Of a stretch of DNA of 64,000 nucleotides, positions 19,265 to 42,577 are shown piece by piece (positions within the stretch are counted from its first letter, which is position 1; each line of letters starts with the position of its first letter). The position numbers were made by a program, and so were the translations under genes. Location: contig JAJEKV010000004.1 in the NCBI GenBank assembly GCA_021234155.1, positions 30,039,305-30,103,304 on the forward strand. Direction: 5' to 3'. Origin of the DNA: Isoetes taiwanensis. Lineage: Eukaryota > Streptophyta > Lycopodiopsida > Isoetales > Isoetaceae. The notes below the pieces were generated by a model. That model was not told where the DNA came from. It saw only the letters and a program-made list of their open reading frames with translations, and searched no databases.

Positions 19265-21110
19265 CATCCTTTGAAGCATACCCATCTGCATACCCATCCC
19301 CCCTTTTCATCATTCCATCTCCTCAAGTTACTATCGTCTCCCACGATTTCAAAAAATAAAGTCCAAGGTAGGACTGGTTTGACAGCCTTCTTGCCTAGAG
19401 GGATACAGTGACCAAGAGCTTGTCTAAGAAGGCATAAACCAGGAGAGTCATTCTCACCGTTCAAGAGTCTCCAAATGAACGTTGAAAAAAGATCTTTGCT
19501 CTGCAGTAAGAAGTCTATTATACCCAGACCACCTGCCCATTTTGGAATGATGCACTTCGACCAAGCCACCTTAATCACAACACCTTCCTCAATACCCACC
19601 CATATAAAGTTCCAAACTATTGCAATGAGCTCACGCACTTTGATCTGTGAGGCTAGCAGTAAGGATGCCATATAAACATGGGTACTACTAAGAACTGACT
19701 TGGCCACTGTAATGCGACCCGCAAGAGACAACTTTGCGGTGGACCACCAGAACAAGTGCTTCTCCAAACCCTTAATAATCTCCTCCCATGCAGCTCCCAT
19801 AGTAACGTGAATGCCAACTGGAATCCCCAACAACTTGATGGCATGTCCATGCACAAGTAGTTTCCATGGATAACCATGAACACACGCCGGAGCCGGAGTA
19901 TCCAGTGTCCATAAAGTTGTACATATCTGCCACCCCATAAGGACACCAGAAGCCAATGAAAAATATCTAAGAGTAGTTTGGCAGCTGCAAGATTCTTAGC
20001 ATTAGCAACTAGGAAGAGGAACGTGTCGTCTGCATATTAATTGCAAACCTCTTGTGTGTCATCCTTCATTGCAAGACCATGGAGAAGTCCCTCTGTGGTT
20101 GCAACGGTGAACAACTGCGACAAAGCCTCTGCAACAATTGTGAAAAGCAACGGTGCTAAAGGGCACCCCTGGCAAATACCACGACCGAGTGAGAAGGCAT
20201 CTGACGGCTCACCATGGAATAGAACAGTCGCCCGAGCAGAGACATGCAGCTTCATAATATCTGATGTGAATTGTTCCCCAAAGCCCAGTCTTAGCATACA
20301 TCGACGCATGAATTCCCAGCTGACACTGTCATAAGCCTTTGCAAAATCAAGCTTAAGATATACAACTGGAAAGTTTTGCTTACGTGCCCAATAAATTCCC
20401 TCGTAAGCAGCAACAACATTGTTCAGAATGCATTGTTTTGGAAGAAAACCTGACTGGGTTGTTGAGATGGACTCTGCCAAGATGTCCTTCACCCACTCTG
20501 CAAAAGCCTTGGCGAATATCTTGTATACGAATGACAATAAGGTGATGGGCCGCCAGTCTGAAATAGTCTTAGGATCCTTGACCTTGGGGATGAGTGAGAT
20601 AGCACCTGTGTTTAGAATTCTATCCAAAGCAGTGGAGCGCCGAAAGTCACAGAAAGCATCATACACATCTGACTCCAGCCACTCCCAATAGTCCCAGAAG
20701 AATTCAATTGGCAAACCATCCAAACTTGGGCATTTGCATCTTTTCAGTTCAAAGACTGCTGAACCTAAATCATCAGCTGTCGTAGCCGCCTCTATTGACT
20801 CGCACTGCTCATTAGAGATCTTGGGGGAAATCCTCGACAAAATAGCATCTCGCATTTCTGATTGAAAGGGAAGATGTTTCACAGCGAAAAAAATCTAGAA
20901 GTGGTTATGCAGATGTTCCTTGAGTTCAGTTGGCTCTGTTAGCACTGTACCATCCGGCAAAAGCAATGAGGACATGGTTGACGTCATGCGACCCCTCTTA
21001 GCCGCAGGAAAAGAGAAGCATGTACAATGGTCTCCATCACGAAACCACTGTAGACCTGCCTTCATCTTTGCCTCCTGAATCTGCTCCTCCTCCAATGCTT
21101 GGATCTGTGA
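19265..21110 (-). pseudogene. Truncated LINE (non-LTR retrotransposon) ORF2: RT part
   Basis: Minus-strand frames at 20,895-21,095, 20,037-20,882 and 19,105-19,956 encode successive parts of a plant L1-type ORF2. An RT thumb/palm region contains WRPITLLSFVYKIFAK, the motif LKLDFAKAYDSV, and GICQGCPLAPLLF. The YADD-box region falls at the frame break near 20,035 and is not intact. Further on come the conserved LAGRITVAKSVL and FIWVG segments. Endonuclease is missing because the copy ends at 21,110, right where the inverted repeat of the large element begins. The other end runs into copia at about 19,262. A sister fragment lies at 10.9 kb. Confidence 0.85.
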
Positions 21111-21134
21111 AGTCGTATTTAATTAAAGTGGGAC
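21111..21134 (+). repeat. Left terminal inverted repeat, 24 bp
   Basis: The 24 bases are the exact reverse complement of 33,471-33,494. Matching stops at 21,134, although both ends go on to carry GGGACTC and short T/A-rich motifs in the next 50 bases (left GGGACTC at about 21,148 and 21,168). Confidence 0.9.
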
Positions 21135-21305
21135 AAATCTTGAATTTTGGGACTCGGACTGAAAATGGGACTCACACACCATAAAAGAAATTTCTGAATT
21201 GATTGCTTGAATAGAATTACACATGACACACATAGAATTGGGTTACTTGTTTTCCTCATAAATTTTACAAACCACTAGTTGAGAAAGTTTTCAAACTTCT
21301 CAATA

Positions 21306-23600
21306 TTATGCACCCTCATACAATGATATAGCATGGAGGTTGCTCATGGCCTTGTCCATCTCCTTTCTTGGGATCTTGTGTGTGTTGTCTTTTGCAATGT
21401 GAGAACTTGGATATGACCACACCACACACTCCACCAATTCCCTCCTTTGAGGGTCAGCATAATTTGGCCTCCACTTCTTCTCCCAGCAGTCAGTGTATTG
21501 CTCCTTCAAGTTGCCCTTCTTGTGCCTCCCAATGGGCTCCCAATATTGAATTTGGAATCCAGGACGCTAACTCCTCTCCATCGGGCATAGTGGTGGTCAC
21601 ATCGAGAGAGTGCCACCCCTAACCATATTGGACAGTCCTCATCATCGCCTTACTAGCACAAAGTATCCTTCCTTGATGTCCTCAAAGGGATCCCACTCGG
21701 GAAGATCAAACCACTTCGGCTTTGAGGCCTTACTTCCCACAAACCACTTGGGACCCAAGTGAGCATTCTTAGACGTGCTTGCACCTTGAGAACCCTCCCA
21801 TCTTGACTCGGCAAGAACCCGCCTCTTAGCTCCCTCCCACATGGTCGTTCGGTTTCTAAGCATGTCACAACTTTCTCCCCCAAGACTTGATTAGGGAGTC
21901 CATTTGATTTTTCTTAAGAGTGGGCGTGTGCTTTCCATTTCGAACATCATCCCAAAGCATGCTATGTAATCCTTGATGCCCTTCACCGGTTGGCTAGAGT
22001 CTTTGACTGCCTTGAAGGGAGGTAGTGGTTTTGGCTGCCCTTTAGGAATGAGAACTTCACCAGCAGACCCCTTTGCCACAACTTCGATACCTTGTACAGG
22101 GGCATCCACAACTTGTCACCTGGTCTCCACTTATATTGCATGATTGGTATTCCATCCCTAACCCAAAACTTGAATTGAAGTGGCTTTGTGTGTCCTTGTC
22201 AACCGGTCCTTGCCATCTAGCAAGTATCCTTCTACAAATGATTTCCAATCTGCAACCTCATCCATCAAGAAAGCCATTGGGTTGGGGTCAATGCACTCTC
22301 AAACACATCCATTAGTTCAGGGGAGAGTGGTCACGTTTTCTCTTGAGCTTGGTGGAGAAAGTTCCAAAGAATCCATCTATATCATCATGCATATGCCCAA
22401 CCATCATGAATCCCACTTTCACAACTTTGAATACTCCCACTTCTTTGTCAAGTATGACATTGCCCCAAACATCCATCTATTCTTGTTTTCTTTCCAACAG
22501 TTGTCCAACCCAACACATAGCTCCTCGGGCGCTGATTTCTCAAGTAAGGGGAAATCATCCCAAGTCCTCCTTGATTCACTAGACACCTTGGATGTGAGCT
22601 TTTTATCGCCTTTGGTAACAAAGCGGTTGATCATCCATCAAAGCCTCAAAAATGGGTGCTTGAAGGGGAATACCTCCTCCCTTCTATCGATCCTTTCTCT
22701 AGTGTTCTCAAGCACTTGAAAATAGAGCTCACATGGAAGTTTGGATCATCTCTCCATAGATCAAGCACAAAATGACCATATGTTCCAGTTCCATGACCAT
22801 GTGTTAATACACCCGCCGGACTCACTTTCATCCTCAAAGCGTTTTGACAACGCTTGGGTAAAGGATCTAGCTTTGGCAAGAAAGTCTTGTGTTGGTCCAT
22901 CTTATCATGAATTATACACAAAAATTTGTCCGGGTTTGCATCTCGAAAAATGTTCTCCACTTTGCCAATACAATCGCCTACATGATATTTGGTCCCTTTG
23001 GTGATCTGCAAATTGCTCCCTAATTGCCATTCTTTCTTTCTCTATTGCAGTTGATGCAAGTGTATCCTTGAGTTGAATGCAAGTGTTGCACTTTGAGAAT
23101 GGCATGTGTTGTAGGACACTCACGTCCGAGAAGTGAGTGCTCCATAACTTGCTGAAATGTGATTGAGAAAGAGGCCTACCTCCAGTAGTTTCTAGGATGG
23201 AGTTGACCTCCTTAAGGCACTCCTTTTGGATATAGTGTTGTGGCAACACTCTTTGCACCACTCGCACACCGTGCTCGTTCACCTTCGACTTGTGGGGCAT
23301 AGATTGAGACATGTATCTCACAAAGCTCTCGAAGACTGCAATGGCCTTTAGAGTATTTGCTCTAGGTTTCAAAGTGAGTGCATTACCATGTTGGAACAAA
23401 GTGTGCCCTTTTCTAACCTGCTCCCAAAGATCAGAAATGAAGACTTGCTCACCCCAAGAATCCATCTCAATGCTCTCATACATACCTTCATTCCCCTCAA
23501 TTGATATAGCAAACGATCTGTGTTTTCATCATAGCCGGAATTCCTACACAAGGAGTAAATGAAATTAATCCTATCTTTTTGAAGTCCCAATGTATTGGGA
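21306..23600 (-). pseudogene. RNase H-like (DUF7869-type) transposase, frameshifted
   Basis: Three motifs appear in N-to-C order on the minus strand, in changing frames. IIHDKMDQHKT lies near 22,900, followed by THGHGTGTYGHFVLDLW. LDNCWKENKNR lies near 22,500. VGHMHDDIDGFF lies at about 22,360-22,400. The set D-K-M-D / D-N-C-x3-N-K-N / G-H-x-H-x-D-I-D is what I know from large transposase-like proteins of the DUF7869 kind, where the acidic residues would form an RNase H-fold catalytic centre. Upstream (23,100-23,590) is a Cys-rich helical part (FSKCNTCIQLKD). Downstream segments contain MQYKWRPGDKLWMP (22.1 kb), KPKWFDLPEWDPFEDIKEGY (21.7 kb) and a C-terminal tail (21.3-21.5 kb). At least four frameshifts or stops break it. 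Family assignment is from memory of motifs. Confidence 0.7.
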
Positions 23601-23715
23601 CCTTATCCGCACGAGGTCATCCACATTGTAATGCACCAGGCAATCTAGGTTGCAACACTCTTGTCCCCTAATTGCCTCCAGTTTTCTTTGGTTGGTGCCA
23701 TACTTTCCATCCTTT

Positions 23716-24200
23716 CTAAATATTTGTCACTTCTAGGCCTCTTGGGCACCTTTGGGTGCCTTTTATGAAAGACATAAAGCGTCTCTTCCTTGTGATCAAA
23801 GGATGCTCATCGACCACCAAATCTTCCACATGGCCTTGGGTGGGCCTTGGGGTGTGTAGTTCAGTAGGGCATTCTAGAGTATCACCATTCTTGTGTGTAA
23901 TAAATCTAATTGGCCATCTCAACTGAGCTTGGGACTCCAAAGAGCCCGAAAGCACACAATGCAATCACTAGAGCTTCCACAGGACATGATAGTATCAACT
24001 TCAATAAGAAGCTTCACAATGCCAACTCCAAGATGTTCATCTCCCACCTCTCATCATTCACACTATCAAATGGATCAACTGCAGTTATTATGCCCTCTGC
24101 AAATACCGTCTGGTTGCAAGGGTGCAACAAAAGGCAACCCATCTTCCTCCATTGGAGCCTAGGGCAATGGCCTCCTTTGGAATTCCCTGGCTCCATTTTA
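23716..24200 (-). pseudogene. N-terminal region of the element's minus-strand gene
   Basis: Minus-strand translation in shifting frames gives GIITAVDPFDSVNDERW, then a segment with LGVGIVKLLIEVDTIM and SDCIVCFRALW, then RKRRFMSFIKGTQRCPRG. The pattern of a short beta-rich unit with DP and G-V motifs looks like an N-terminal non-catalytic domain. It lies upstream of and co-directional with the transposase, with no other gene between. I do not recognise a named domain, and the reading frame is interrupted. Confidence 0.4.
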
Positions 24201-24237
24201 CTCATCTCACATGCTCCCTGAATGAAAAAGCTCACAT

Positions 24238-24545
24238 TAAAACCATATAGCCCCAAACACCACAAATATGACCATATGAACCATATAAAACCATACAAAC
24301 CACACTCATATACAAACCATACAACCATATAAAACCATACAAACCACACTCATATACAAACCATATACAAACCATACAACCATATTAACTAAAATCATAT
24401 AACCATATTAAAGCATACAACCACACTCATTCTAAACCATATGTAAACATTGTAACCATTGAAACCATATTAAATACAACCATTGAAACCATATTAAATA
24501 CAACCATTGAAACCTTATTAAATACATAAGATAACATATATAAAC
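24238..24545. repeat. Minisatellite rich in AACCATA/ACCATACA units
   Basis: About 300 bp consists of degenerate repeats of AACCATA(CA)n, including a longer unit ACCATATAAAACCATACAAA followed by CCACACTCATATACA seen twice (about 24,270 and 24,327), then three copies of AACCATTGAAACCATATTAA with variations. It sits between the minus-strand transposase gene and the plus-strand locus. The minus-strand frame across it (Trp/Phe/Tyr-rich) is an artefact of the repeat. Confidence 0.85.
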
Positions 24546-24577
24546 ATATAACCTGGCCTTTCATATTTTGTCATGGA

Positions 24578-24660
24578 CACGTGGCGCCTCTTCAGAGGCT
24601 GAAACCGTGGCCACGTCAGCAATCCACTGCCACGTCATGGAGGGCATGGCCCACACGTGA
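24578..24660. promoter_or_regulatory. Four ACGT-core (G-box-like) motifs in a divergent intergenic region
   Basis: CACGTG occurs at 24,578-24,583 and 24,654-24,659, and CCACGTCA occurs at about 24,611 and 24,630: four ACGT cores in about 80 bp. ACGT-core elements bind plant bZIP and bHLH factors. They lie between the start of the minus-strand transposase gene and the first plus-strand exon at 24,849, followed by a CT-rich leader-like tract (24,720-24,790). This layout suggests a shared or plus-strand promoter. The transcriptional role is inferred. Confidence 0.5.
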
Positions 24661-24848
24661 CAATGGTTTTTATTATTGCACTTTTACGAGGTTCGAGGGT
24701 GCAGCCAGAATTAACTGCACCCTCTTCCTCTCCCCCCGACCATTCTTCCTCCCCTGTTTTCTCTGATCTCTCTTCCTCCCCTGTTTCCTTAGGCGCCCGC
24801 TTTACCGATCGGTGATCGATCGAACCGGCGATTCCAAATATAAATCTT

Positions 24849-25329
24849 ATGACAGCAGCTTGGTCGACGGATCAGGACGCTTCCAGCGCCGAAGTTCTCG
24901 CGCAGATTCATTGTTCGAGCGGGCGTTACCGCCTGAGAAGAAAGTGAGGCCCTTTTTAGTGCTGCTTTTTAGTTTTCTGTAAGTCTTTTAGTGCATTTTT
25001 TCTTATATTCTGTTGTTAGAGGCTCTTATTAATCCCTGATACAATTTACAGCCCGACAAATCCTTATTCACGCTTTGTCAACGACTATACCCACATGGAA
25101 GCGAACTCGGAAGCCTCCTCCTCATCCAGCAAATCTTCCAGGTATGTTTTTGTAATATCATACCCTTTTTTAATCTCATTTTTCTGTACTGTTCTCCACT
25201 GTTCTCTGTACTGTTCTCCACTGTTCTCTGTTTTCTCATTAATCTCATTAATCTTTGTATTGTTTTCTGTTTTTTGTTATCTTTTTCTTGCTTGTGGTTG
25301 AATTGAATACATTGTACAGGCACAAGTGA
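24849..25329 (+). CDS. Possible small three-exon gene at the start of the cargo arm
   Basis: An ATG at 24,849 opens MTAAWSTDQDASSAEV and runs to AGAAGAAA|GTGAGG (about 24,947). After an acceptor TTTACAG near 25,050, a second segment joins in frame (PTNPYSRFVNDYTHMEANSE, then a serine-rich end) and reaches CCAG|GTATGT near 25,140. A third segment after TTGTACAG at about 25,319 adds two residues and a stop, unless it is spliced again at GTGAGA. The spliced product would be about 65 residues. Both introns are short (about 100 and 180 bp) and AT-rich with good borders. No domain is recognised. This could instead be the 5' part of a longer transcript feeding the downstream exons. Confidence 0.35.
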
Positions 25330-25799
25330 GAATAGTGGTTAGAGTAGTAGCAAGCAACCGAGATAGAAATCATCGAGACCGGTGTTAGGAAGTAAGATAT
25401 TGCGAGCATTAACAAAAATAACTAGGAATGTCTTTCTCCCAAAGAAGAATTCGAATAGGAATTGCTTCACGTAATCTCCATTTCTAACTCACAAAGAAAT
25501 CCACTGCAGAGACATGCATAAGGGAGTGGCGAGTTGAGAATACTTCCAGCTTGCCAACGGTCAAGGAAGTACTGAGGCCTTCTTCTCGACTCATGAAGTC
25601 GAGAACTTCTCGACTTCATTGGCGCAGAAGAGGGAGTGTACACTCTAGGCCTGCTGGCGGGTTGAGGGATTCTCGACTTCGCGATTCGATTGCACAGACT
25701 ACCCAATGTCTTCACATTCTTTAGAACCTGCTGCAGCCTTCTCGACTTCGTGGAGTCGAGAATGTGATACCGCCAATGGCTCTTTGTGCGCCGCGGTGC

Positions 25800-26945
25800 C
25801 TCCACCCACCGAAGCCACTCTCCTTGAACCATGCTCATCGAATATTGCGAAGAGGACGGGCTCCGACCGGGTGGAGGGCCTCGGCGACTAACCACTCGAG
25901 GTGCTGGCCTTTCTCGACTCGTGAGTCGAGAAAAACGAACTCTAGTGCACTCTAGAGCTGGCTGCAGGCAGATCTCAACCACTCTCCTTCTATCTTCCCT
26001 CGGACATTGCGTAAGGGAAGTGGTTTTGACTGCCCTGGAGCCAACTCTTAGCAACCCAATTCTCAGTGTGGTCGGTGGCCTCTACCCAATCAAAGACCGT
26101 CTCCTTGAACCATCTTCGGTATTGCGAAGGGGATGGGCTCTCGATTGGGTGGAGGCCTCGGCTAACCACCTGAGTTCTTTGGCTGCTTTCACTCGTGAGT
26201 CGAAAAACGCACTCTAGTGCACTCTAGAGCTGGCCTGCAGACAGTCTTAAACACTCTCCTTCTATCTTCCTCGGACATTGCGAAGGGAAGTGTTTTTGAC
26301 TGTCTGCAGGCCAACTCTTAGCAACCCAATTCTCCTGTGTGTGGTCGCAGTGGCCTCTACCCAATCAAAGACCGTCTCCTTGAACCTTCTTCGTCGAATA
26401 TTGCGAAGGGATGGGCTACGATTGGGTGGAGGCCTCTACAACTAACCACGGGGGAAACCACGAGTTTCTTTGGATGCATTCTCGGCTCATGAGTGGGAAT
26501 GCCTTACCCAACCGCACTCCATGTGTACTAACCTGAGTTGGATGGCCAAGGCATTCGACTTGCGAAGTCGAAAGAATGTAGACAGAAGCCAAGCATTCTC
26601 GACTTCGCAAGTCGAGAATCCCTTAGCAGCCAATTCTCACAGTAATGCGGTAGCGGTGGCCTCGACCGGTCGAAGTCACTCTCCTTGAACCATCTTCGTC
26701 GAATATTGCGAAGGGAGGGGCTCCTGACCGGGTGGAGGCCTCTACAACTAACCACGTGGAAACCACGGGAAGCCAAGGCTTGCATTCTCTACAAGTCTTG
26801 CACTTTCTATTCTCCCCGTTTTTAGTCCCAAGTGCCTCTAGCCTGTCCTGAGCCACTCTCCTTTGAACCATCTTCCTCGAATATTGCGAAGAGGAGTGGT
26901 TCTGACGAGTGGGAGGCCCCTCCGACTAACTACAAGAGGATGCAT
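25800..26945. repeat. Five diverged tandem copies, about 180-300 bp unit
   Basis: A core beginning CTCTCCTTGAACCATCTTCG, then TCGAATATTGCGAAG, GGGTGGAGGCCTC and ACTAACCAC recurs at about 25,815, 26,103, 26,369, 26,672 and 26,856. The central CTTCGTCGAATATTGCGAAG is itself an imperfect palindrome. Members of the CTCGACTCGCGAGTCGAG family lie between copies. The array is inside the inverted-repeat element and noncoding. Confidence 0.85.
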
Positions 26946-27270
26946 TTGAACCGCATCTCACGGGCCTTAGTCCTAGCCTGATCTATGTACAACATTCCAA
27001 GTAAACAGTCCATGAAAAACACACCTAAAACGGGCTGTTTCTTTACCCCGATCCAATGTTTCCTTGCCGAGCATCTCTCAACCTAGAGAGTAAATCATCT
27101 CTCGAAGCTGAAAAATGCCGGACAAGGAAACATCAAAATCCGTCGAGCTTATCGCCAGCCCATTATTTAAACACATACGGCATGTTCTACAAGCGAAATA
27201 ACATAGGCATCTCTGAAACTCACCTCTTCACGCGGTAATTCCTTGGGGCCATCAGATCACGGATCCCGCG
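26946..27270. other. Noncoding stretch with a long imperfect hairpin
   Basis: AATGTTTCCTTGCCGAGCAT at about 27,055 is mirrored by GCCGGACAAGGAAACAT at about 27,117, giving an imperfect inverted repeat with a loop of about 45 bp. No gene is evident. Confidence 0.5.
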
Positions 27271-27273
27271 GCC

Positions 27274-27486
27274 TCACCCGTAGTCTTTGCTTCTTACATT
27301 TGGTCTCTTCAAGAGTGTATTCGCATCTAATACTTGTATCATCACGATTCTCGCGTATCCCCTTTCCATGGCGCCCTTGATGTAGAGTTCCCGTGTCGGC
27401 AGCTCCTCTCCGCTTCCTACCTTAGCTCCGTGCTCATCGATCAAATCAAGCGCTTGCAATAGGGCGCTGGTCGGGGAAAAACACAC
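27274..27486 (-). pseudogene. Unrecognised minus-strand coding-like segment
   Basis: A 70-codon minus-strand frame reads ALDLIDEHGAKVGSGEELPT, then YIKGAMERG, then ARIVMIQVLDANTLLKRPN. Its composition is protein-like and differs from the repeat-derived frames around it. Its D-x2-G ... V-G-S-G-E ... G-x-A-R-I-V pattern loosely resembles the segment upstream of the transposase at 24.1 kb (VDPFD ... LGVGIVK), so it may be another copy of that N-terminal module. There are no clear splice borders or partner exons. Function is not known. Confidence 0.3.
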
Positions 27487-28055
27487 ATATGCAAAGCGCC
27501 GTTAGCGCCTTACCGCGTCGCGGCGCCATTCCGGAAGTCGCTAACGATCGATGATCCCCTCCACCTCGAAGTTCCCCAATGCAGCGGGAAGATAAACTAC
27601 GCCCACTCACTTAGTCCCTTGATGTGATTAAATTTGAAATAGTGTTTGGGCGGGGCTAAAGCCGACCGTCTTTGTACCCTTTTTAGCCCGCTTTTTTCAT
27701 AAATGATTGCATGTCCTTAACTTCAAATTAAAGAACACGCCTCGATCTTTTTACATGCAGTCCTAAAAACTCACAACGCTGGAGGAAACTTAATTTACTG
27801 AGGGGGTCCTAAGAGGATGAGAGGGCATCTGAGACATGACTCCGCCCAAGAAGCGGTGGGCCGAGGGGATGCTTCTGCCAAATGGGCAAAGAAGAAGAGG
27901 AAAACACCCCGGGTGAGCTCGAGGTTTTTCTTTTGTCGGAATACCTTAATCGATCCATCCTTTCTTCTTGCAAAGATTCACCTCTGACTCACCGGTGATC
28001 ACCGGCGAACTCCATTCTTCGTCATCGAGGGACCGAGACGAGCTTCTTGAAACAA

Positions 28056-28230
28056 ATGGCAGATTCTTGGTGGTATGTCGAGGTATCGACAAGTGGGAAG
28101 GAGAAAGATCTGTTTCTACACCAAAGGGACAAGAAGAGCTCCGGAGACAAGTACAAGAAAATCGGTGTTGTGCTCTCCGCCTCTGCCCGATTCAAGCATT
28201 TAACACTACATGTCGAGGACTGCCCGGAAG
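28056..28230 (+). CDS. Putative first coding exon of the plus-strand cargo gene
   Basis: An ATG at 28,056 (CAAATGG) opens MADSWWYVEVSTSGKEKD, continues with a basic stretch (HQRDKKSSGDKYKK) and IGVVLSASARFKHLTLHVED, and reaches a donor-like GAAGA|GTAAGTTC at about 28,231. An earlier TTG at 28,047 is in frame, but the ATG is the natural start. The composition is coding-like. The next coding segment begins around 28,340. No named domain is recognised. It lies at the head of a run of co-directional exons ending near 32.2 kb. Confidence 0.45.
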
Positions 28231-28339
28231 AGTAAGTTCTATCGCACCAAAAATTAGCAGTTTCAAATTATTCTCACTCTTCCATGAGCAAGGCTAAGGG
28301 CACCAAAAAAGCCGGGCGCTTTTAAATTGTCGGAACCTT

Positions 28340-29112
28340 GGGTGGAAGGATCCGAAAGGGATGAAGGAGGCCTAACCCTAACATCCAAGGAGCTTGGTAT
28401 GGAGATTTCGAGTCGGGGAAAAACTGTTCAATACGGGGAGCTTCACTTCTACCAGTCTTTGAAGGCTCTACAACACTCTGGCGGTGGGGGATGAAGTTGT
28501 GGTTCATACACAAAAAAGTCCACCAAAAAACAAAGATGGGGATGATGACACCACACGGGAGGAATCAGATGACGAAGGAGACGAAGATATGGTCGACTCC
28601 CCAAACCTCGATCCAGATGATCAGATCAGGATTTCACAGAGAGGGGCACAGAAAATGGAGCGTCTAGCTCAGTATTATCCGTTGGGAATATCACACAAGC
28701 CGCTTCTTTGGACATTAGGCGGTGAAGGTTTGCAATCGGAGATGCCGTCTTGTTCAACCACGAATTTAATCCAAAGACACATGCCGGAGATTCTCGAACG
28801 ATGGTGCGACATCCTTGCTGCGATCCAATGCCTCGGGATGTCATACCTTTTAGCGGTCGGCAATTGAGTTGTTCAGCTGGAAGTCTGAGGAAGATCTGAA
28901 GGGAAAAGAAGTCCGGTTCTGGGTTGTAGACGGTCAGCATTCAGTGAGGGCGGCTCAAGTATTGCAGACGGAGAAGGAGGTGCCGCAAAGGATCAAGGAT
29001 AGATATGCCAAGCGAGAGTGCAGAGTTCTTTCGGCGGAGACGCCAGCAACCGAACTGGCCAGCATTAGCCACTGCCAGAACACAATAGCAGCGAGTGCCA
29101 GCTACGTAAGGT
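28340..29112 (+). pseudogene. ParB/sulfiredoxin-like domain segment with a DGQH motif, frameshifted
   Basis: The first part (28,360-28,485) reads TSKELGMEISSRGKTVQYGE, then LHFYQSLKALQHSGGG. A run of five G at about 28,485 breaks the frame; skipping one G joins it to DEVVVHTQK and a highly acidic linker (28,530-28,620). A helical part follows (QKMERLAQYY, IQRHMPEILERW). A second shift near 28,865 leads to GKEVRFWVVDGQHSVRAAQV and further on AETPATELASISHCQNT. The WVVDGQHSVRAA motif matches the D-G-x-H-R core by which ParB/Srx-fold nucleases and CTPases are recognised, although the following Arg is offset. The segment ends at AG|GTAAATA near 29,112. Assignment rests on this one motif. Confidence 0.45.
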
Positions 29113-29612
29113 AAATAACTCTCTGAATCTTTCCATTCTCGACTCGCGAGTCGAGAAAGCCCTGCCATCCTAACATTTCTTGGACATCATCGGGGTTTCT
29201 CGACTTCGAAATGAAGCCGTGAGTAACCTGAGAAAAATCAAAGGATGTGGAGCTTTCGACTCGCGAGTCGAAAAACCCTTAGCCAAGAAAAAAGAAATTA
29301 GACATTCAATGGGACTCTCGACTCGCGAGTCGAGAAAGCCCTGCCATCCTAACATTTGCCGATTATCACTGGGGTTTCTCGACTCGCGAGTCGAGAAAGC
29401 CAGGGTAATGCAGAAAATCAAAGGATCTAGCTTTCTCGACTCGCGAAATCGAAAGCCGGTAATATCTGAAAAATCAAAGGATGAGAGCTTTCGACTCGTG
29501 AAGTCGAAAAAACCAGAGAAGTAAAAAGAAAATTAGACATTCAAGGGACTTTCTCGACTTCAAGAGTCGAAAAAACCCGGCTACTATTTACCGCTTATTC
29601 CTGTGTTTGTAG
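29113..29612 (+). other. Predicted intron packed with palindromes and short tandem repeats
   Basis: Between the donor AG|GTAAATA (about 29,112) and the acceptor TGTTTGTAG (29,612) lie eight palindromes of the CTCGACTCGCGAGTCGAG family spaced about 55-65 bp apart. They are separated by recurrent pieces such as AAGCCCTGCCATCCTAACAT, AAAATCAAAGGAT and AAATTAGACATTCAA. The intron thus consists almost wholly of a palindrome-bearing tandem array. Confidence 0.6.
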
Positions 29613-30385
29613 ATACTTTCATGCTCGACATTGGTACATTGTCCTAATGCAGCCCTTATCCCCGACCAGATCATACACGCTGAGCAACAATGGAAAGCAT
29701 TGGGTTGTCCTCGGCCCTAAAAGGAAACAGGGCTCCCTCGGATAAGTGGAAGACCTTTGAGAAACTATGCAGATATGTTCTGCTGGAGGGACAGGAAGAT
29801 GACGAGGGAGAGGAAGAAGAGGAGAAGAAGAAGAGAACACCAAGGAAAGGCAGGGAGTCTCTCTCAGACCAATATGACCTCATTCTTAGCACTGAGGCGG
29901 TCTGGGAGAAATGGACTGACATATGGGCTCAATGGACAAGAGGCAAGCTGAAGGACAGCAATGGAGAATTTCCAAGCAGGCCGGACCCCAAGTTGTTTGA
30001 CAAGCAGTTCATGAAGAGGATACAGGGCCTCACGGACAAAGAAACGCTTGACCTACAAGGCAAAATCTTGGAGGGAACAATCCTGCTGAGGAAGACCAGG
30101 AGTTCTAAATTGCAGGACGCAAAGGATTATGCCACAGTCCTAAAGCGACAGCGTGCGTTAGAAGAAGGCATCACGGAGTTCTGCAACGTTGCATCTAATG
30201 AATACCATGATTTTGATTATTACAAGGAAAAGGCTGCCCTTGATGAGGAAGACATGAAGGAATTGAACCGTCTATGTCAACCCTACATCAACACCAAGCT
30301 GAAGCATAGCGTCAAAACCCTTCCTTTCCCCTCGAACGTGCTATGGCAATTCTCGAAAGGAAGCTTGATTTCGGGTGGTCCCATT
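29613..30385 (+). pseudogene. Coding-like segment of the cargo gene, unrecognised
   Basis: A 232-codon frame from 29,690 contains KWKTFEKLCRYVLLEGQ, a stretch rich in Glu and Lys (EDDEGEEEEEKKKRTPRKG), then EAVWEKWTDIWAQWTRG, FDKQFMKRIQGLTDKETLDL and a helical C-terminal half. Upstream, in another frame, QIIHAEQQWKALG looks like the proper start of the same protein, so a frameshift is likely near 29,700. The segment is helical and charged with no catalytic motif I recognise. It sits between the ParB-like and FCP1-like parts on the same strand and is probably one long protein or adjacent exons. Confidence 0.4.
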
Positions 30386-30389
30386 TAAA

Positions 30390-31233
30390 GGCGCACGATA
30401 GCTCCCCCATTTCTGGTTACTTTGGGACACAAGGGATTTGGTGGTGCAGAACCGCACTGACCCGTGGCACTATTTGCCATCAATATGATCAAGACCCCAC
30501 CCTTTTTATGACAAAGCCGACATAGAGCAAAGTTGGTACAAGACGTGTCACGGACATGACCGACCGGATACTTTCGCCCTTGTCTTTTGCATGCCGGCAA
30601 TCAAACAACCGCTTTGTCTCCCAATGGGCACCGATATTAACTTCACCAACAAGATCATGCACTCCATATACGAACTTGATCATGAGTGCGGACTTGGCTT
30701 GCCGGAAGGCACCAAGCTTTGCCAACATAGTTTTGGTTTTGATTTCAAGATCGGCGGTCGACTGGATAAGTGGTGGTCTAGCGAGCATCATTATCTCGAC
30801 AAGTTCATGATCTCTCAAGAGCGATGGAACCCCGGAAGGGGGGCAGGTTTATGGAGGATGTTCCATCGATGGACAAGGTCAGCAAAGATGGTGCGACCGG
30901 TCCTATACATAGAATTCCTATTCGCCAAGAGTTATCAAGTACTTCATAACCAGCTTGGTCGAGGAAGATCAAATTGTATGCGAAAGTGGTACATGAATGG
31001 CCTGTTTCTCTCGGGGGGCTATCTTTGTTTGGAATGAAACCTATATCCGTGGTTGGAAATAAGGACATGGTTGAAACCATTCAGTCATACACGGATCTGC
31101 TTCATGAGCATTTCAAGGGGAGGAAGACAAATGGAAGCAAAGAAAGACGACGAGGGGCGAGGGAGACAAACCCGACGGAGACGAGGATGTCGAAGGTTTG
31201 GACCGAAATCTTTGCCGAAAAACATTATTGAAA
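30390..31233 (+). pseudogene. Second coding-like segment of the cargo gene, unrecognised
   Basis: After a frame change at about 30,385, one frame (to about 31,035) encodes WYKTCHGHDRPDTFALVFCM, FTNKIMHSIYELDHECG, HSFGFDFKIGGRLDKWW and RWNPGRG. The end of the segment continues in a different frame as VVHEWPVSLGGLSLFG and ISVVGNKDMVETIQSYTDLL, with a shift near 30,965. It ends at GAG|GTGAGT (about 31,236). Clusters of Cys, His, Trp and Gly suggest a compact domain, possibly metal-binding (C-H-G-H, H-E-C-G), but I cannot name it. Confidence 0.4.
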
Positions 31234-31236
31234 ACC

Positions 31237-31400
31237 CGAGATTGAGGTGAGTTTACTTTGCTCTATCGGTGTTTCTCGACTTCGCGAGTCGAAAAACTCG
31301 CTTTCCTTTCAATACCTTTTTTTTTCATTCTCGACTCGCGAAGTCGAAAAAAACTCGTTCCTTTCGACGGATGTCATCATTTCGTGGAATTCGGTCAACG
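31237..31400 (+). other. Predicted intron with two palindromes
   Basis: A strong donor, GAG|GTGAGTTTAC, lies near 31,236. The following AT/T-rich stretch holds two members of the palindrome family (31,270 and 31,330) separated by about 60 bp. The acceptor is uncertain, somewhere before about 31,420. Confidence 0.45.
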
Positions 31401-31560
31401 ACTCCGGATCATTGTCAATGGATTCCAACGGTTCACGTCGCGAGGGAATGAGAATGAAAATCCGAGAGCAAGACACCGCCACGGCCGGAAAAGAACCTGA
31501 AAAGATAATGATCCCGCATTTGGATCCCGATGAACCGGAAATATGGTCGAGCCAAACTCC

Positions 31561-32224
31561 AATCGGGATCCACTTGGTCCCACCAAGCTTGTAATATTTG
31601 ACGTCAATGGAGTATTAGGCTGCAGTATATACCACGACAAAAGACGTCCCCGAGATTAACACCTCGCAGATCCCAATGAAAAACAGAGCATAAAATAGTG
31701 TATCCGAGGCCTAGAGCTAAGGAAATTATTGGTGGTGCCCAGCACGGATTCGGCGGGGCATATGGTCTTATATGGCAAAGAAAAATATTGTCAATGTTCT
31801 TGGTGTTCTCGGCATTTCAGTTTTGAAGTTCAAGTTCGTTTGGGGAAACGAAAGGGTCGAGCATGTGAAGGACCTCGATCCAGCCATCACAAAGGGGAAG
31901 CCTATAATGGTGAAAAGGTCGGATGGGGTTTATGAGCTATTCCAGGACTATGGCAAACACAACACGCTGATCATAGACGACTCATACACAAGTGCTATCA
32001 TAACGCCGCAAAATACAATCATTGCTAAGCCATATCGACCAAAGAATATGAGACGGATAGGTGGTTGTCCTTCGGACTCTGTCTGCCTTGGCGGAATCCC
32101 TCTTCGCCATTCTTGTCGCCCGATGTGCTTACGAACTATCCGAGCCTCACGGAACCCGATCCAGAGAGCAAGCCCGATCATGAAAGCTATGGACGACAAA
32201 TACTTTGGTGAACAAGAAGAGTGA
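31561..32224 (+). pseudogene. FCP1/SCP-like HAD phosphatase domain, frameshifted
   Basis: Two frames give the two halves of an FCP1-type HAD domain. The first has LVIFDVNGVLG (about 31,588), the nucleophile motif, with Asp at position 1 but Asn in place of the second Asp. After stops near 31,655, another frame resumes at about 31,760: GIWSYMAKKNIVNVLGVLG, KFKFVWGNERV, then NTLIIDDSYTSAI (motif IV, D-D retained) and TIIAKPY. Such domains remove phosphate from serine/threonine, as in RNA polymerase II CTD phosphatases. A D-x-N nucleophile site is common in an uncharacterised plant subfamily, from memory. The frame ends at 32,224. The upstream part (31,470-31,560, acidic, LDPDEPEIW) is in yet another frame. 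Broken in this copy. Confidence 0.7.
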
Positions 32225-32309
32225 CCCCGCTTTCAGATAGTCAAATTGTGTGAATATTGTAATCGAACGTGAACACATGTATTGACCATTTTGTAATGAA
32301 TATACTTGT

Positions 32310-32590
32310 ATATTGAGTTTTCGATGCCTTTCTCGACTCACGAGTCGAGAAAGGCATGCTTGTCGTGTTGATGAAATGCTTGTACAATCTATTATGATAA
32401 TGCTTGTACATTGGGTTTCCTGGGCCTTTCTCGACTTCGCGAAATCGAAAAGGCATGCTGATTGTCTCGTTGACAAAAGCATTTGTTTGCTTCCGTGTGT
32501 GATTGGATGCAACCATATTCTAATGAGAATGGTTGTACTTTGACTTTTATGGGCCTTTCTCGACTCGCGAGTCGAGAAAGACACTACTTC
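32310..32590. repeat. Tandem array of palindrome-bearing units, about 100-125 bp
   Basis: Three palindromes (32,329; 32,427; 32,555) each lie in a similar context. A stretch with TTGTACATTGGGTTTCCTGG or a near relative precedes GGCCTTTCTCGACT, and ATGCTTGT or TTGGATGCA follows. It resembles the array in the 29.1-29.6 kb intron but with a longer unit. Confidence 0.7.
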
Positions 32591-32718
32591 CCACGTCATT
32601 GGATGCAGTTGTATGGAATGAATGTTCTCCGTTGTAATTTGATTTCAACATTCTTTTCTTCGCTTTGACTAATGGCACCGTAATTGTTAATCATACTCTC
32701 CTTGCTCCGGTGGTTTAG

Positions 32719-33075
32719 GCACGATCCCACACCAAAGACAGATCCCGCCGTGCATCACGAGACCGCTCCAGCGACCATGCATCCAGCTCAAGGCCAAAGA
32801 AATACCGCTCGCACGCATCCCTGGCCACGCTACACTCTTGCCCTGCCTTTGGGACAAGGTTGCTCGCTAATTCGAGAGGTTGCTCGCTACACCCCGGGAA
32901 TAAAGAACAAAGAAGAACAAAGAGAAAGTCCAGGAAGCTCAAGGCATATTGCAAGCATTGCGTAACATCCACTGAGGTTGGGGAAGGAGCATATTCGATG
33001 AAAGGTCAGCGGGAGGCGAGTGGAGAAGTCGGGTGGACAAAGTCGGCCGGTAGCTCCAGAGGCACCTCCACGTGA
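32719..33075 (+). CDS. Putative Arg/Ser-rich basic exon near the right end of the element
   Basis: After an acceptor-like TGGTTTAG (32,718) a frame stays open for about 118 codons: ARSHTKDRSRRASRDRSSDH, SSSRPKKYRSHASLATLHSC, a cysteine pair (YCKHC at about 32,947) and a glycine/serine-rich tail to a stop at about 33,073. The beginning has the RS/RD dipeptide character of RNA-binding or splicing-related tails. No globular domain is seen. A likely polyadenylation-type A/T-rich region follows (33,235-33,300). It could be the final exon of the cargo transcript or a separate small gene. Confidence 0.35.
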   Translation, partial: ARSHTKDRSRRASRDRSSDHASSSRPKKYRSHASLATLHSCPAFGTRLLANSRGCSLHPGNKEQRRTKRKSRKLKAYCKHCVTSTEVGEGAYSMKGQREASGEVGWTKSAGSSRGTST

Positions 33076-33470
33076 GGCATTCCACACTCTTCGGTTGCCC
33101 CCAAGGCTTACAGACGGCATGAAGAAGCGCCCACAAGTTAATCCCCTAAGGTGGACCACCTACCAAGATGATGTAATCAGTAGTGACAAAGAAGACCGCC
33201 ATGGTCTCTGCGTCCATGTAAAATACATTGTATCTGTTCAATTTATTAATAAAAATTCTTTTTCAACTACATCTTTGGTTTCAAACTTTAATGAATTTCC
33301 TTTGTTTCAGTTGCATTGTTTTTGTTCTCGACTCGCGAACCTGGGAAAACTGCAGCACAGCTCGCATTCCGAGTTTTATTCAAAAATTCGAATTAAGGAT
33401 AGTTTTCGGGTCGGGGTGCTACTTTTTATGTAAATTAACCGGGTTCCGAAAAAAAATGGGAATGGAATGA

Positions 33471-33494
33471 GTCCCACTTTAATTAAATACGACT
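33471..33494 (-). repeat. Right terminal inverted repeat, 24 bp
   Basis: GTCCCACTTTAATTAAATAC plus GACT is the exact reverse complement of the left repeat at 21,111-21,134. It lies about 130 bp past the last partial palindrome (33,325-33,341) of the family confined to this element. Confidence 0.9.
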
Positions 33495-33990
33495 GGAATA
33501 TCACGATCATGAACATCTGGAAGATGTCCCTGTCGAGCATGGAGCAGGTCCTGATACAAGGTGTCAAAGGATATGACATGATTAGATCAAGAATCTCTAC
33601 ACAATCTTTACTATGGAGCCAACTATGCATAATGATAGAGAGAGAGAGTTTCCCTTGGCAATGCCCTTTGCATATCAAGACCAAGATTTCAGATGGTTTA
33701 ATTTTCTGTTTCCAAAGATTTTGCCTCACGAAAGAGAAGAATCATATAGCAACATGGCATATGAACCATGTCAACCTTCACTTTGCTCTTCATGATATTC
33801 AATGATGATGTTCCCTACATTTTAATCATTACATGGATCGATACTCTTACTAACGTGATAGTTGCCATGCTGGAGAACTGTCTATATGCAAAGCAAAAAA
33901 GTAAAAAATAAAAAAAAAAGGGGCGGGGAAGGGGACTCACATGATTCTGTCATGGAATGTTACTTCGAACATGAGCTGGTGCCTCCTTTA
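33495..33990 (+). pseudogene. Right flank of the element: coding-like debris
   Basis: Just past the right inverted repeat, plus-strand translation gives EYHDHEHLEDVPVEHGAGPD and, after stops, a segment with FPLAMPFAYQDQDFRWFNFL ending at a stop near 33,793. The pieces look like fragments of a protein but match nothing I know. They do not continue the LINE present on the left flank. An A-rich run at 33,895-33,920 follows. Confidence 0.3.
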
Positions 33991-34511
33991 TTTTGTACAA
34001 CACCTTTGTACTTGAAGCTGACATTCTCTTAGCCAGTCAGAAGCAGCAAGCTGATGGCTCTAAATCTTTTGCAAGTATCGAAGCAAATGGCCTCCCAAGT
34101 TTGCAACGATGAAGAAATTTTAGTCTCCCCCCCCAAAAATCTCTCCATTTGACCTGAATTCTTGCCCAAAGCATCCGTTCCTGAACTCGCCAATAAATTC
34201 CAATTCAGATCTCCCCCTAGCTGGAATAGGGATGGACGAACTCTAGAATAACTTAATACAAGAACAATCCATTATACTAGAATAGTAACACAGCCAGAGT
34301 TAAACCAACCAAACTGGTTCCATGAAGAATCCGCCCTCCTAGGTCCGTCCAAAGTGCAGCCACCACCTCCAAAGGGAAAGGTGCAGTTGTAACAGATGAT
34401 GAAGGTTTCACTCTAGCTCCTGCATCCACGAAAGGCAAAGAAAAAGGTTATTTTAATGCAAGGAAAGGCCGAGGTGGCTATAGTCTGTCCATAAAAAATC
34501 CTGACATAAAT

Positions 34512-38960: not shown

Positions 38961-41900
38961 CCTTTTAAAATCTGTTCAACAGACTTTTACCATCCATGGA
39001 CTTTTGCAAAGACCACTTCCGGCCAATATGCAGCCTTAAGCCAAATCAGGTGTCAACTTGACTTAAGCCTTAAAAATGGTTAACATTAATCAAAGCAAAG
39101 GAAATTACCAGATTCTCTTATAAATAAAAATTTCCTCTTGTCAATCCAATTAATTTTCTCGTTCAATACATCATATTTACCTCTAAAAGAATTCAGAATT
39201 GACTCAAAAATAACATAAGATTAAACATGGAAGTTTAAGATTTCACTTGTCTTTTAAATCAACACCATATAGCTCAGTAGCCTTGTCAAAAATGTGAGTT
39301 CAATGTCATCACGTCTTGTAGCTTCTCCAACTTGAATGAATGGAAAAACATACACAGGAGCAAGAAATCCCGTTACCTGCAGTGAAACCAGAGGACAGTT
39401 AGCCTTGGAAGGGTAAGAGCCTAAGTCACTAACAGGTAAGCTACGGATTCCTTGGGCTTATCGCCCTTCACCTTGCATGTTAACACAAGCACAATAGACA
39501 TGCATATTTATCAAGCAGAGACTGTATAAGTAACTCTGCTCTAAATAATGAACCTGCCCTTCATCTTGCATTAAGATAAACACCATAGACATGTCCATAA
39601 GATAAACACAATCGACAGAGAACCACAATAGACAGGAAAATTTTATCTGCAAAGAATATCTAAGCTCCTGCCCTAAATATTTAATCTAAGTGAATCTGTA
39701 AATCGCCGCATGCATGCTAATAGAGGCATTCCAAACAGCTAGATCCAACTCCGGAAGCTTCAATCTAGGTAACTCTTAGTGTAAACCATGCCAATAGCCC
39801 ATAAGTGCCACTTGTTCCAAAGGTGTGAAGCCACTTGTTCCGCTTGTTTTATCTGCAGCAATGCTCATCACGTATATTACTTATTTTTTAGCCTAATCAT
39901 CCAGAGAAAGCCCATGTTTAGAGCACCTGTTACTTGCTCTTGGGACATTACTAGCTGCACACATATTAGTCATGCATAAGTCTAGCTTCATATTGCATAA
40001 GCCCCAACAATATTGCATATTACCTTGGCAGAGCCCTTGCTTTTTCTCAGCCATGTTCAAAGAAGCTTAAACATGTGTTCATGGGAGATCATAAATGAAC
40101 ACGTTCAAATCTAGGCTATATACAACATCCAAAACAACCTAGTTCCATTTCCAAAACTTTCTGAAAAAAACCAGTGGACTATTCTTACTCTGTTGTATTA
40201 TTCCAATCACAGGGATATCACATCAATTACGAAATTATTAAGCCCTAAAGCACCTAGATCCTTAAGCCTATCTTGAGATCCACTTAAAGCATCATGCTCA
40301 TAACATCTATTATACCACGCAACTCAAATTCATTGAAAAATTGCACTGAATTTATCATGCACATGCATAGAAGATAATCAGACCTGTTGGGCTCGATTTA
40401 AAATGCCAATGCTTTGAGTTGTAGTGTCGGTATCCTTGCATTTCCTCCTCATCTTCATATGACTATTATCCTGCTTAGATCCAGGGTTTGTAATATCACC
40501 TTGGGCAGCTGCCTTTGTATCTGATGTTTGCATCTCATTGCATACTGCAAGCTTCATAACCTCTAGTTAGATCATAATCACTACGTAGAAACTCAAGCTA
40601 ATGAACACATAAATGATCATGGAATATCCATAAAATCTCATAGATCTTATTCCTGCCTATATCTTTGTCCTTATTGTAATCCCCTTAAATACATCTTTTC
40701 TTAGTCCTCATTCAGGTTCCCAGATTTGCTTGTAATATTTTATGGCAGAGCATCAATAAATTCTTAAACCCATGTTAAGGTCCAAACATACATTGTCTAC
40801 TACTTTCTGCTCATAAACCATCTTTCATAATCAGATCTATCATTGTCCAGACCCAAAATTGCAAAAAGAAATGCCTCAAACCTTAAGAGTTCGTTGGAAT
40901 AGAAAGATTTCTCCATGGCATTTATTCTGGTGCTGCCTCCAGCTTGCTCCATGCGTCTATCAGATTGCTCAGCTAATTTTACAGCAGAGCCTGCCCCACC
41001 ATAGTTCTGACCAACGGCTTCAAACTCGGAGCAAATTATGGCATATCCATGTTTAAATTCAAGGCCGAAATTACAAAATTAGCTTTGCTTCTGCGCAGGG
41101 TTAAGCTAGAAGGCTTGCTAAGACACATCTTGGTCCGATAGCTGAATGCAAATAAACCCTAAATTTGCCGACTGTCCTTAGCCAAGAAACTATCATACCT
41201 CAAAATATTGAACTGTCTACGGCCGTGGGGCATATGTTTGAGTGGTACAAACCCTAACAAAATGGTGTTGATCAGCAATCCAGGCAGTATGCCAACTCAT
41301 GCGCCATGCTATTTTGCTATTTTCTGTAAAGCCATAGAGACATGACAAGCAAATTCAGGTTACATAAAAATTTACAGTTTTTTCATGGTCGAAAACCTTG
41401 GCCCAAACTATTATTTCGAAAAAACCTTTTCAATGCACATTAGCATTTATAATGTAATGCTCAAGTTACTCCCATAGGAATTTCTTATTTTTTATTTTCA
41501 TCTTGCATTTAGAATTGTTTTGAGCAACACATAATATTACATTCTGAAGACCATCATCTTACTAGTGCTAGTTTCACCTCGCCATCACTTAACCAAATCC
41601 AGTGTATCAAAATATTATCTAGCCCTTTTTACCTTGTTCATTCCATGTCTTAGCCATTTCATCTGCTTCTTAGAGCCACGAAATGTGAAGAAAGCCTTAT
41701 TCATCGTTGGACCATTGTTGAACCATTGCATCATTGAACCAAGTCGAACCACTGTACTTGGTTTTAATTTCTTAACTTTTCCAGTCCTTAAAGTTCTCAA
41801 CGAACCTCAGAATTTTTCTCTAATCAATTTCAAGTTCACTCCATGTAAACCAAGTGTACCCACATCTTTAGAAGCAATGACTGCACAATGAGCTTATTGG

Positions 41901-42065
41901 GCGCTTTAGATCACAGCTTGGCCAGTAAACCACCAAAATCATTAAGATACAGCAATATCAAGTCTGTGCTGCAAGTCAAATAAACCATGTATCAAGTGTA
42001 CTGCCACTGCCGAAACCAAGTAAAAAAGCACTTAGCATTCCACATTATCCATAATAATAAAAAAA
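38961..42065. repeat. 3.1-kb direct repeat, copy 1
   Basis: From CCTTTTAAAATCTGTTCAAC (38,961) to CCATAATAATAAAAAAA (42,065) the sequence recurs at 42,578-45,685. The copies are identical over long stretches, with differences confined to about eight short clusters. The left edge is exactly the poly(A) of the LINE, and the right edge is an A-run. It contains the 3' part of a minus-strand gene. Copy 1 keeps the exon frame at 40.9-41.0 kb, so it appears the better version. Confidence 0.95.
39254..41880 (-). pseudogene. 3' part of an unidentified host gene (minus strand), copy 1
   Basis: Four minus-strand exon candidates have splice-like borders. 41,880-41,633 (CAG|TC ... AACAAG|GTAAAA) encodes IASKDVGTLGLHGVNLKLI and MNKAFFTFRGSKKQMKWLRH, with one in-frame stop between. 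41,024-40,882 encodes FEAVGQNYGGAGSAVKLAEQ, then RRMEQAGGSTRINAMEKSFY. 40,544-40,384 (TTGCAG|TATG ... CAACAG|GTCTG) encodes a polar stretch with HMKMRRKCKDTDTTTQ. 39,376-39,254 encodes VTGFLAPVYVFPFIQVGEAT, then DDIELTFLTRLL and a stop. The last two join in phase. Long introns are filled with AT-rich DNA. The protein is not recognised, and upstream exons are missing from the window. Confidence 0.4.
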
Positions 42066-42577
42066 GCCTGCCTCCTACCGTAGGTCAGGGTGGGCCATAT
42101 TCGTACATGAAGTTAGCAACAAGGAGAGTAGGACCTTGTTGCCAAAGCCCTACCCTACCTATATTGCTTGATTATCTTTTATTGCAGAGAGCCGAATGGC
42201 AAATAGATTCTTCCTAGTCTGGGCCAATGCCAAAAGACTAGTTTAAAAGAGCCAAAACTCAGTCTATGATCCAGCTTACATGTTAAGCTTTATTGGCATG
42301 ATTACATCAACAACAAATGTTATGTTACCTTTATTACTGAATGAATTTCCTTCGTTCTGATGCACGCTAAGAGCAAAAATCCACTAACATTTTTGTACAG
42401 GCTATATGGCAGCCTTAGCAGGTAATCGTCCAAATTGGTAGAATTATAGTCATCATTTCCAGCCTATGCCAATTTCTGTAAATATCCAAAAATGTATTAG
42501 AAACAAATTATATACACCTGTATTTTAACCATTTTAAGGCCCCTAGTATAACTAGAGAACTGAGTTAATGAAAAAAA
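42066..42577. other. Spacer between the 3.1-kb repeats
   Basis: About 510 bp of unique sequence beginning GCCTGCCTCCTACCGTAGGT and ending TGAGTTAATGAAAAAAA. No gene or repeat is seen. If the duplication is an assembly artefact, this would be the sequence next to the unit in one haplotype. Confidence 0.6.

Follow-up and report, generated by a model that had tools for sequence, protein, structure and literature searches.

A 22-bp palindrome arrayed in non-coding parts of a DUF7869 transposon family of Isoetes taiwanensis: candidate binding sites for an element-encoded protein

Why does one short, nearly perfect palindrome recur 22 times along the introns, spacers and flanks of a single plant transposon? 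The locus that raises this question lies at positions 30,039,305 to 30,103,304 of contig JAJEKV010000004.1 of Isoetes taiwanensis (assembly of 1.66 Gb in 1,110 contigs); we refer to this whole stretch of 64,000 nucleotides as the window. The transposon spans positions ~21,110–33,495 of the window, has a 24-bp perfect inverted repeat at its ends (25 bp in other members) and is, judging from its transposase sequence, a member of a DUF7869 transposon family with long (12-kb) and short (4-kb) elements. We found the palindrome in arrays outside the coding blocks of the long element and also in the short members, and we lean, with little more than even confidence, towards reading these sites as binding-site arrays for a protein encoded by the long members, which would act much as VANC proteins do on Arabidopsis VANDAL transposons.

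The sites share the near-palindromic consensus TTCTCGACT-CGCG-AGTCGAGAA, with the arms TTCTCGACT and AGTCGAGAA around a centre of 4–6 nt, and we listed 22 of them between positions 25583 and 33347, all in the plus-strand right arm of the element; the initial annotation had counted about 22. When at least 14 of the 18 arm bases were required, 19 matches fell within 25.5–33.4 kb and 2 elsewhere in the 64 kb, the latter being at chance level (40 dinucleotide shuffles of the whole window: mean 1.3, maximum 4). At 16 or more arm bases there were 13 matches within this interval, none elsewhere in the window and none in the shuffles. At 13 or more, the window held 33 matches (23 within the interval) and the shuffles 11.7, so that the score alone is not above chance; the listed sites at 26185 (12/18) and at 26479, 26552 and 29197 (13/18) were accepted by their place in the series, and a match at 31806 (13/18), which sits within an open frame, was dropped as chance. 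The exact 24-mer was present twice (29375 and 32556) and the 16-mer core TCGACTCGCGAGTCGA five times.

Eight sites form an upstream array at 25.6–26.6 kb, eight lie in intron 1, two in intron 2, three after the last open frame and one near the right end. None of the 23 candidate positions (the 22 sites and an additional half-site at 25607) lies within a coding block, which bears out the placement in introns, spacers and flanks. The coding blocks cover 42% of 25.5–33.5 kb and are approximate in this copy, as are its intron ends, because its cargo gene is broken. Perfect symmetry in several copies was likewise confirmed, both arms being unchanged in 8 of the 22 sites. The paired change that had been suggested is weakly supported in the window, with five double arm changes, all Watson-Crick (shuffle p = 0.09).

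We examined the distribution of the motif across the genome. Across 1.66 Gb we counted 4,623 copies of the 16-base core, with a chance expectation of ~0.4 (equal base frequencies) and no occurrence of the reversed control. It had been proposed to ask whether the motif occurs only inside copies of the element, and we followed this on a sample of genomic stretches drawn by the motif from the sites listed first. All 20 stretches of the first sample (8.7–9.9 kb, covering 45 of 50 listed sites) matched the element outside the motif, some over kilobases of the long element, others at both ends of a 4-kb member or at one end or more; the weakest, L024, matched 73–77 bp of the right end. The second sample comprised six stretches from another listing, with no exact end listed nearby: five matched the family with palindromes masked (L050, L053 and L054 only across 38–223 bp), and the sixth, L051, aligned with the left part of L015 (359 bp, 75%) once the low-complexity filter was switched off. 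Altogether, 26 of 26 stretches hold DUF7869-family sequence, and at 11 loci of known bounds 90 sites were present in 66,020 bp inside the elements versus 0 in 96,990 bp outside. As far as sampled, the motif is private to one DUF7869 transposon family. Viral and prokaryotic collections contained no copy of the exact 22-mer; the arms with a free centre matched eight viral contigs, at one site each. Literature searches returned nothing on 'TCGACTCGCGAGTCGA' or on 'DUF7869'.

Members were also chosen by their ends alone, blind to the motif, and all nine (five 4-kb and four long) carry the palindrome. The five short members contained 8–10 sites each (at 14/18 arm bases, right-end half-site included) and were flanked by the target duplications AAAG, TTGT, TTAT, TTTT and GATT; the middle stretches of the four long members contained 12, 2, 16 and 14 sites, the one with 2 covering only the window equivalent of 24.4–28.9 kb. 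Among 12 bounded 4-kb members, 10 had a matching 4-bp target duplication (flanks read by eye; L016 and L017 without), and 11 had at least one site ~520–930 bp from the left end. The initial annotation had described the palindrome as confined to the cargo arm, which holds for the 12-kb copy in the window and not for these short members. Open frames were listed for one short member, and none of them resembled transposase or cargo.

When the 12 short members were compared with the window element by BLAST, ends excluded, the matches were at least half palindrome, except for one 50-bp exon match in 2 of the 12; a more sensitive comparison recovered the same match in 9 of the 12 (E-values 1e-5 to 0.02). 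This exon remnant, located just downstream of intron 1, corrected our view that long and short members share only the motif and the ends. It follows the motif array in both kinds of members, so that the short-member array occupies the intron-1 position of the long members. The spacers are unalignable between long and short members and the palindromes are the same; given the same exon after both arrays, the motif therefore persisted while the spacers diverged past alignment. At the left site of the short members, L014 and L015 on the one hand and L045, L047 and L049 on the other carry the intact-arm 22-mer in opposite orientation and with unrelated flanks. We also observed that the 4-kb members L013–L017, L021, L023 and L045–L049 have left ends that resemble each other and a ~750-bp conserved right part, and that their middles match only between some members, as if internal sequence had been exchanged.

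The geometry of the site was examined genome-wide on intact-arm sites with centres of 3–6 nt (8,058 in total). The centre was 4 nt long in 6,563 sites, 5 nt in 943, 6 nt in 361 and 3 nt in 191. A hairpin loop should tolerate 5–6 nt and a dimer sitting on two half-sites less so, therefore the dominance of 4 nt favours a DNA dyad. Pairing was counted in a set of 222 copies with at least 15 of 18 arm bases, largely from loci chosen by the CGCG core; short loci in this set (L033–L040) overlap others, so that the set includes some copies twice (without effect on the genome counts). C.A and G.T wobbles occurred about equally often (91 and 84 among 1,998 arm pairs), hence no RNA strand is preferred, and the strand imbalance found within the window by itself (C.A 15, G.T 7) was gone. 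All 21 double arm changes were Watson-Crick; in 118 strict copies the arm-arm association was weak (outer pair p 0.05, centre p 0.12). Asymmetric centres (CACT/AGTG) were retained with intact arms. On the 4-nt centre and the lack of strand bias in the wobbles, we favour a putative DNA dyad over an RNA hairpin.

In intron 1, the CpG dinucleotides are concentrated in the palindromes. The observed/expected CpG ratio of intron 1 in the window copy was 0.34 with palindromes masked and 1.37 unmasked, and in the short members the arrays reached 1.02–1.55 versus 0.44–0.83 in the right ends, with a contribution of the spacers (0.95). In the reading that we prefer, these dyad-symmetric, CpG-rich palindromes would be bound by a protein of the long members. 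Clustered in introns, in the 5' and 3' flanks of the cargo gene and in the subterminal regions of the 4-kb members, they would let this protein recognise the DNA of its own family only, in cis and, on the short members, in trans; the bound protein would most probably oppose silencing, in the manner of VANC on VANDAL21, or alternatively aid transposition or transcription. Binding sites for an element-encoded protein were one of three meanings offered by the initial annotation, and the best supported of them in our analysis, in view of the family specificity, the non-coding placement, the retention in 4-kb members, the 4-nt centre and the absence of strand bias; our scans identified no binding protein. 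The half-site near the right end, with its counterparts in other members, is possibly a transposase site.

Several observations speak against such a protein-binding role. The left 4.4 kb of the long element has no palindrome site, and in the upstream array masking lowers the CpG ratio only a little (0.58 with and 0.77 without masking). Centres other than 4 nt were found in 1,495 of the 8,058 intact-arm sites, and the 4-nt excess could also come from descent from one ancestral 22-mer. Pairing at flank positions 1 and 3 exceeds expectation, and the left site of the L013/L017 subfamily (element positions 664 and 695) shows a matched change in both arms, TTCTCGCCT / AGGCGAGAA in L013; a protein that reads sequence would have no need of either. 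No homologue was found with one cargo open reading frame and one joined cargo protein, and no DNA-binding domain was identified by Pfam in the cargo protein pieces scanned. Finally, base for base, the sites show no consistent advantage in conservation over their flanks: in diverged copies, site versus flank identity was 0.683 vs 0.742 in the 3' region, 0.765 vs 0.655 in intron 2 and, with L019 and L028 left out, 0.617 vs 0.592 in intron 1. This fits the decay of dead copies and gives no direct signal of selection.

The main rival is pure correction without function. The palindrome would then be a minisatellite whose self-complementary units multiplied and stayed symmetrical through hairpin-templated correction, unequal exchange and gene conversion, and were inherited with the family; we regard this as rather unlikely. 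The tandem units of ~60 bp vary in copy number between copies, as such a process would have it, and across eight copies of intron 1 the site type is nearly uninformative on the sequence (3.87 edits between copies for the same site type, 3.94 for different types), different site types within one copy being more alike (3.58 edits; permutation p 0.019). Within a copy, sites appear to have variants in common: L041 repeats one odd variant at two of its sites, and L043 has a single variant in several places. The Watson-Crick pairing of every double arm change and an evolution not clearly slower than that of the flanks also agree with it. Correction alone leaves unexplained why the unit stands among unrelated spacers in the introns, the 3' region, the upstream array and the left ends and never in the coding blocks, why a 4-nt centre is preferred, and why all nine end-picked members have it despite replaced spacers; the asymmetric centres kept between intact arms also argue against it. 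In L044, the five intron-1 sites recovered are all identical and perfect. Most simply, active lineages would maintain a perfect motif that decays once a copy is dead, and sites would exchange sequence to some extent.

We consider it improbable that the palindromes are structured RNA, that is, short stem-loops in element transcripts that would, along with the long upstream-array hairpins, have a role in splicing, in stability or in the production of small RNAs. The sites do occupy introns and flanking regions of the cargo gene, and the strongest fold z-scores of the window fall in the upstream-array region. There, seven diverged long hairpins, U1–U7 (25793–26922, plus strand), are interleaved with the palindrome sites; they are homologous, ~90 nt each, with a conserved apex and stems that have diverged yet stay paired. 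Double changes were present at 11 of 27 consensus pairs, with an RNAalifold covariation term of +0.61, slightly unfavourable owing to broken pairs. Hairpins with the same apex and a fold z below -2 recur in other long copies in varying number (for example 5/5 in L044, 6/8 in L043, 1/6 in L019), and the favoured strand varies from unit to unit. Pre-mRNA hairpins, another of the meanings proposed at first, keep the intronic position of several sites in their favour; against them, the wobble types are balanced between strands over the 222 copies and the centre is concentrated at 4 nt, though 5 and 6 nt should fold equally. The arrays are moreover kept in short members, although the one whose open frames were listed showed none like transposase or cargo, and stems of 9 bp are too short for Dicer. 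A separate long hairpin at 27054–27135 (-48.5 kcal/mol on the minus strand versus -33.6 on the plus strand) resembles a plant microRNA precursor. An Rfam scan gave nothing at gathering score and a tRNA scan gave none; sub-threshold microRNA hairpins, mir-3926 over U4 (39.5 bits vs 82, E-value 1e-4) and MIR821 (E-value 0.27), were not accepted as family members.

Tiny palindromic mobile units inserting into the transposon, as the initial annotation also envisaged, would account for one palindrome with unrelated flanks at many places and are scarcely credible, since homologous sites hold their position in nearly all aligned copies of intron 2 (7 copies) and of the 3' region (6 copies), with losses by flanking deletion or decay and no clean empty site seen in those copies, and since all sampled stretches hold family sequence and no site lies in the 97 kb outside bounded members.

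The site coordinates, all on the plus strand, rest on an arm-match scan of the window and a site-by-site listing unless otherwise given. The upstream array starts with a site of intact arms and 5-nt centre (25583–25605), adjoined by the candidate half-site outside the 22 (25607–25629, 14/18 arm bases), and continues with a site of degenerate right arm (25670–25692), an intact-arm site with a 6-nt centre (25739–25762), one with intact arms around CGTG (25911–25932), two degenerate sites (26185–26206, 12/18; 26479–26500, 13/18), a short-arm variant (26552–26574, 13/18) and a last intact-arm site with a 5-nt centre (26596–26618). Intron 1 (29111–29612, plus strand) combines its eight sites with three kinds of spacer at a period of ~60 bp. 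Two of these sites are perfect 22-mers (29136–29157 and 29376–29397), two have a single arm change (29315–29336 and 29551–29573), and two have T-A for the outer C-G pair on both sides (29253–29274, where L044, L029 and L028 have a long left arm, and 29488–29510); the right arm is degenerate at 29197–29218 (13/18) and changed at 29433–29455.

The two intron-2 sites were found in 7 of 7 (31273–31295) and 6 of 7 aligned copies (31328–31350, lost with its flanks by deletion in L028). Past the last open frame, the site at 32330–32351 was present in 6 of 6 aligned copies, with changed arms in L019 and L028; the one at 32428–32451, with a 6-nt centre, was palindromic in 4 of 6, degenerate in L019 and mostly lost in L026; and the perfect 22-mer at 32557–32578 was present in 6 of 6, degenerate in L019. 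The last of the 22 (33325–33347) is a left half-site, TTCTCGAC(T)CGC, whose right half differs from the consensus; in most of the long and short members that were aligned, it lies ~150 bp inward of the right end.

The left terminal inverted repeat occupies 21110–21134 (plus strand; 25 bp, of which 24 bp are the exact complement of the right end) and the right one 33471–33495 (minus strand), its final base unlike the 25-bp form. Exact matches to the 24-mer number 1,107 on the plus and 1,121 on the minus strand of the genome. No matching 4-bp target duplication was seen around the window copy, its flanks being read by eye. The frame-shifted transposase gene lies on the minus strand (21300–24250), with open pieces at 22908–23525 and 22649–23041, among others. 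Its hand-joined read across the frame shifts scored 88.4 bits for Pfam DUF7869 (cut-off 26) and had two database homologues (E-values 3e-70 and 2e-49), both carrying PF25273; among viral and prokaryotic contigs, no relative of the transposase was confirmed. On the plus strand, the frame-shifted cargo gene or genes (28056–32224) comprise an exon with a DGQHS motif (28854–29111), open pieces at 29684–30385 and 30489–31034, and a NIF-type phosphatase-like part near 31570–32221. The NIF domain scored 41.7 bits (cut-off 21.8) in the uninterrupted open reading frame of copy L019 and 13.3 bits in the window's own piece. The GT donor of intron 1 was kept in 8 of 8 aligned copies and its acceptor in 7 of 8, with a second possible acceptor at 29652; the intron-2 acceptor of the window copy reads differently than in other copies.

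Around the transposon, minus-strand frames of the left flank (20700–21110) continue a reverse-transcriptase-like gene, and the right flank (33495–34300) may continue the same gene; from the appearance of these frames, we presume that the transposon is inserted in a long interspersed nuclear element. Further near-identical segments lie outside the transposon, at 8395–8477 and 9069–9151 (~674 bp apart) and within 39323–45411 (~3.6 kb apart), pointing to local duplications.

Several known systems resemble these arrays in part. ParB-parS, to which the initial annotation had compared them, has palindromic sites of similar size and fixed spacing, here reflected in the 4-nt centre of 6,563 of 8,058 sites; the Isoetes sites belong to a eukaryotic transposon and are spread in large number across kilobases. 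The DGQHS motif may recall ParB-like folds by way of a DGQHR motif, and the comparison was not confirmed at the protein level: the DGQHS exon gave only sub-threshold Pfam scores (DUF6551 13 bits, cut-off 26.8) and a predicted structure of too low confidence for use (predicted local distance difference test score, pLDDT, of 43). Plant CACTA/Spm elements likewise have several copies of a motif inside their ends, retained in non-autonomous members, but the Isoetes motif is palindromic and also found in introns and a central array, and the terminal repeats, target-duplication size and transposase differ. REP/HIP1 and mitochondrial double-hairpin elements are short repeated palindromes, mostly non-coding; they are dispersed over genomes, unlike the Isoetes motif, which as sampled is limited to one transposon family. 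The Sola superfamily has a 4-bp target duplication, and the comparison with the 10 of 12 bounded 4-kb members covers the duplication size only.

The closest comparison is with the VANDAL elements, which are similar to Mutator-like elements. Sequence-specific anti-silencing through tandem motif arrays is described for Arabidopsis VANDALs by Hosaka et al. (PMC5735166) and Sasaki et al. (PMC10398659). According to the former, VANC21 binds a 9-nt motif that is rare outside VANDAL21, lies in non-coding regions, introns and upstream regions included, and accumulates as variable tandem repeats; according to the latter, RNA-directed DNA methylation acts in the same kind of regions. The Isoetes arrays share with these, as far as sampled, a short family-specific motif that is dense in introns and other non-coding parts, forms rapidly changing tandem repeats and is rare in other transposable elements, and we infer that they may work like a VANC target array. 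They differ in that the VANC21 motif is given there as a 9-nt YAGTATTAY in a single orientation, in contrast to a 22-bp CpG-rich dyad, and in that the Isoetes transposase is of the DUF7869 type and no VANC-like protein was recognised (the VANC-type Pfam domains DUF1985 and DUF287 had no match in the cargo and transposase pieces scanned, the gene being broken). It is doubtful, though conceivable, that these arrays represent a second, independently evolved self-recognition system of plant transposons, in which one protein, a novel sequence-specific factor for anti-silencing or transposition that reads arrays of the dyad, would tell its own family (some thousand copies or more, counting the short members) from all other DNA of the 1.66-Gb genome. 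Should such self-marking span a different transposase family, a wider transposon strategy would be suggested, and a motif so short, symmetrical and countable could yield a natural site-specific tool for plant chromatin. Because motif, transposase family and candidate protein all differ, we liken the Isoetes palindromes to a VANC target array and do not class them as one.

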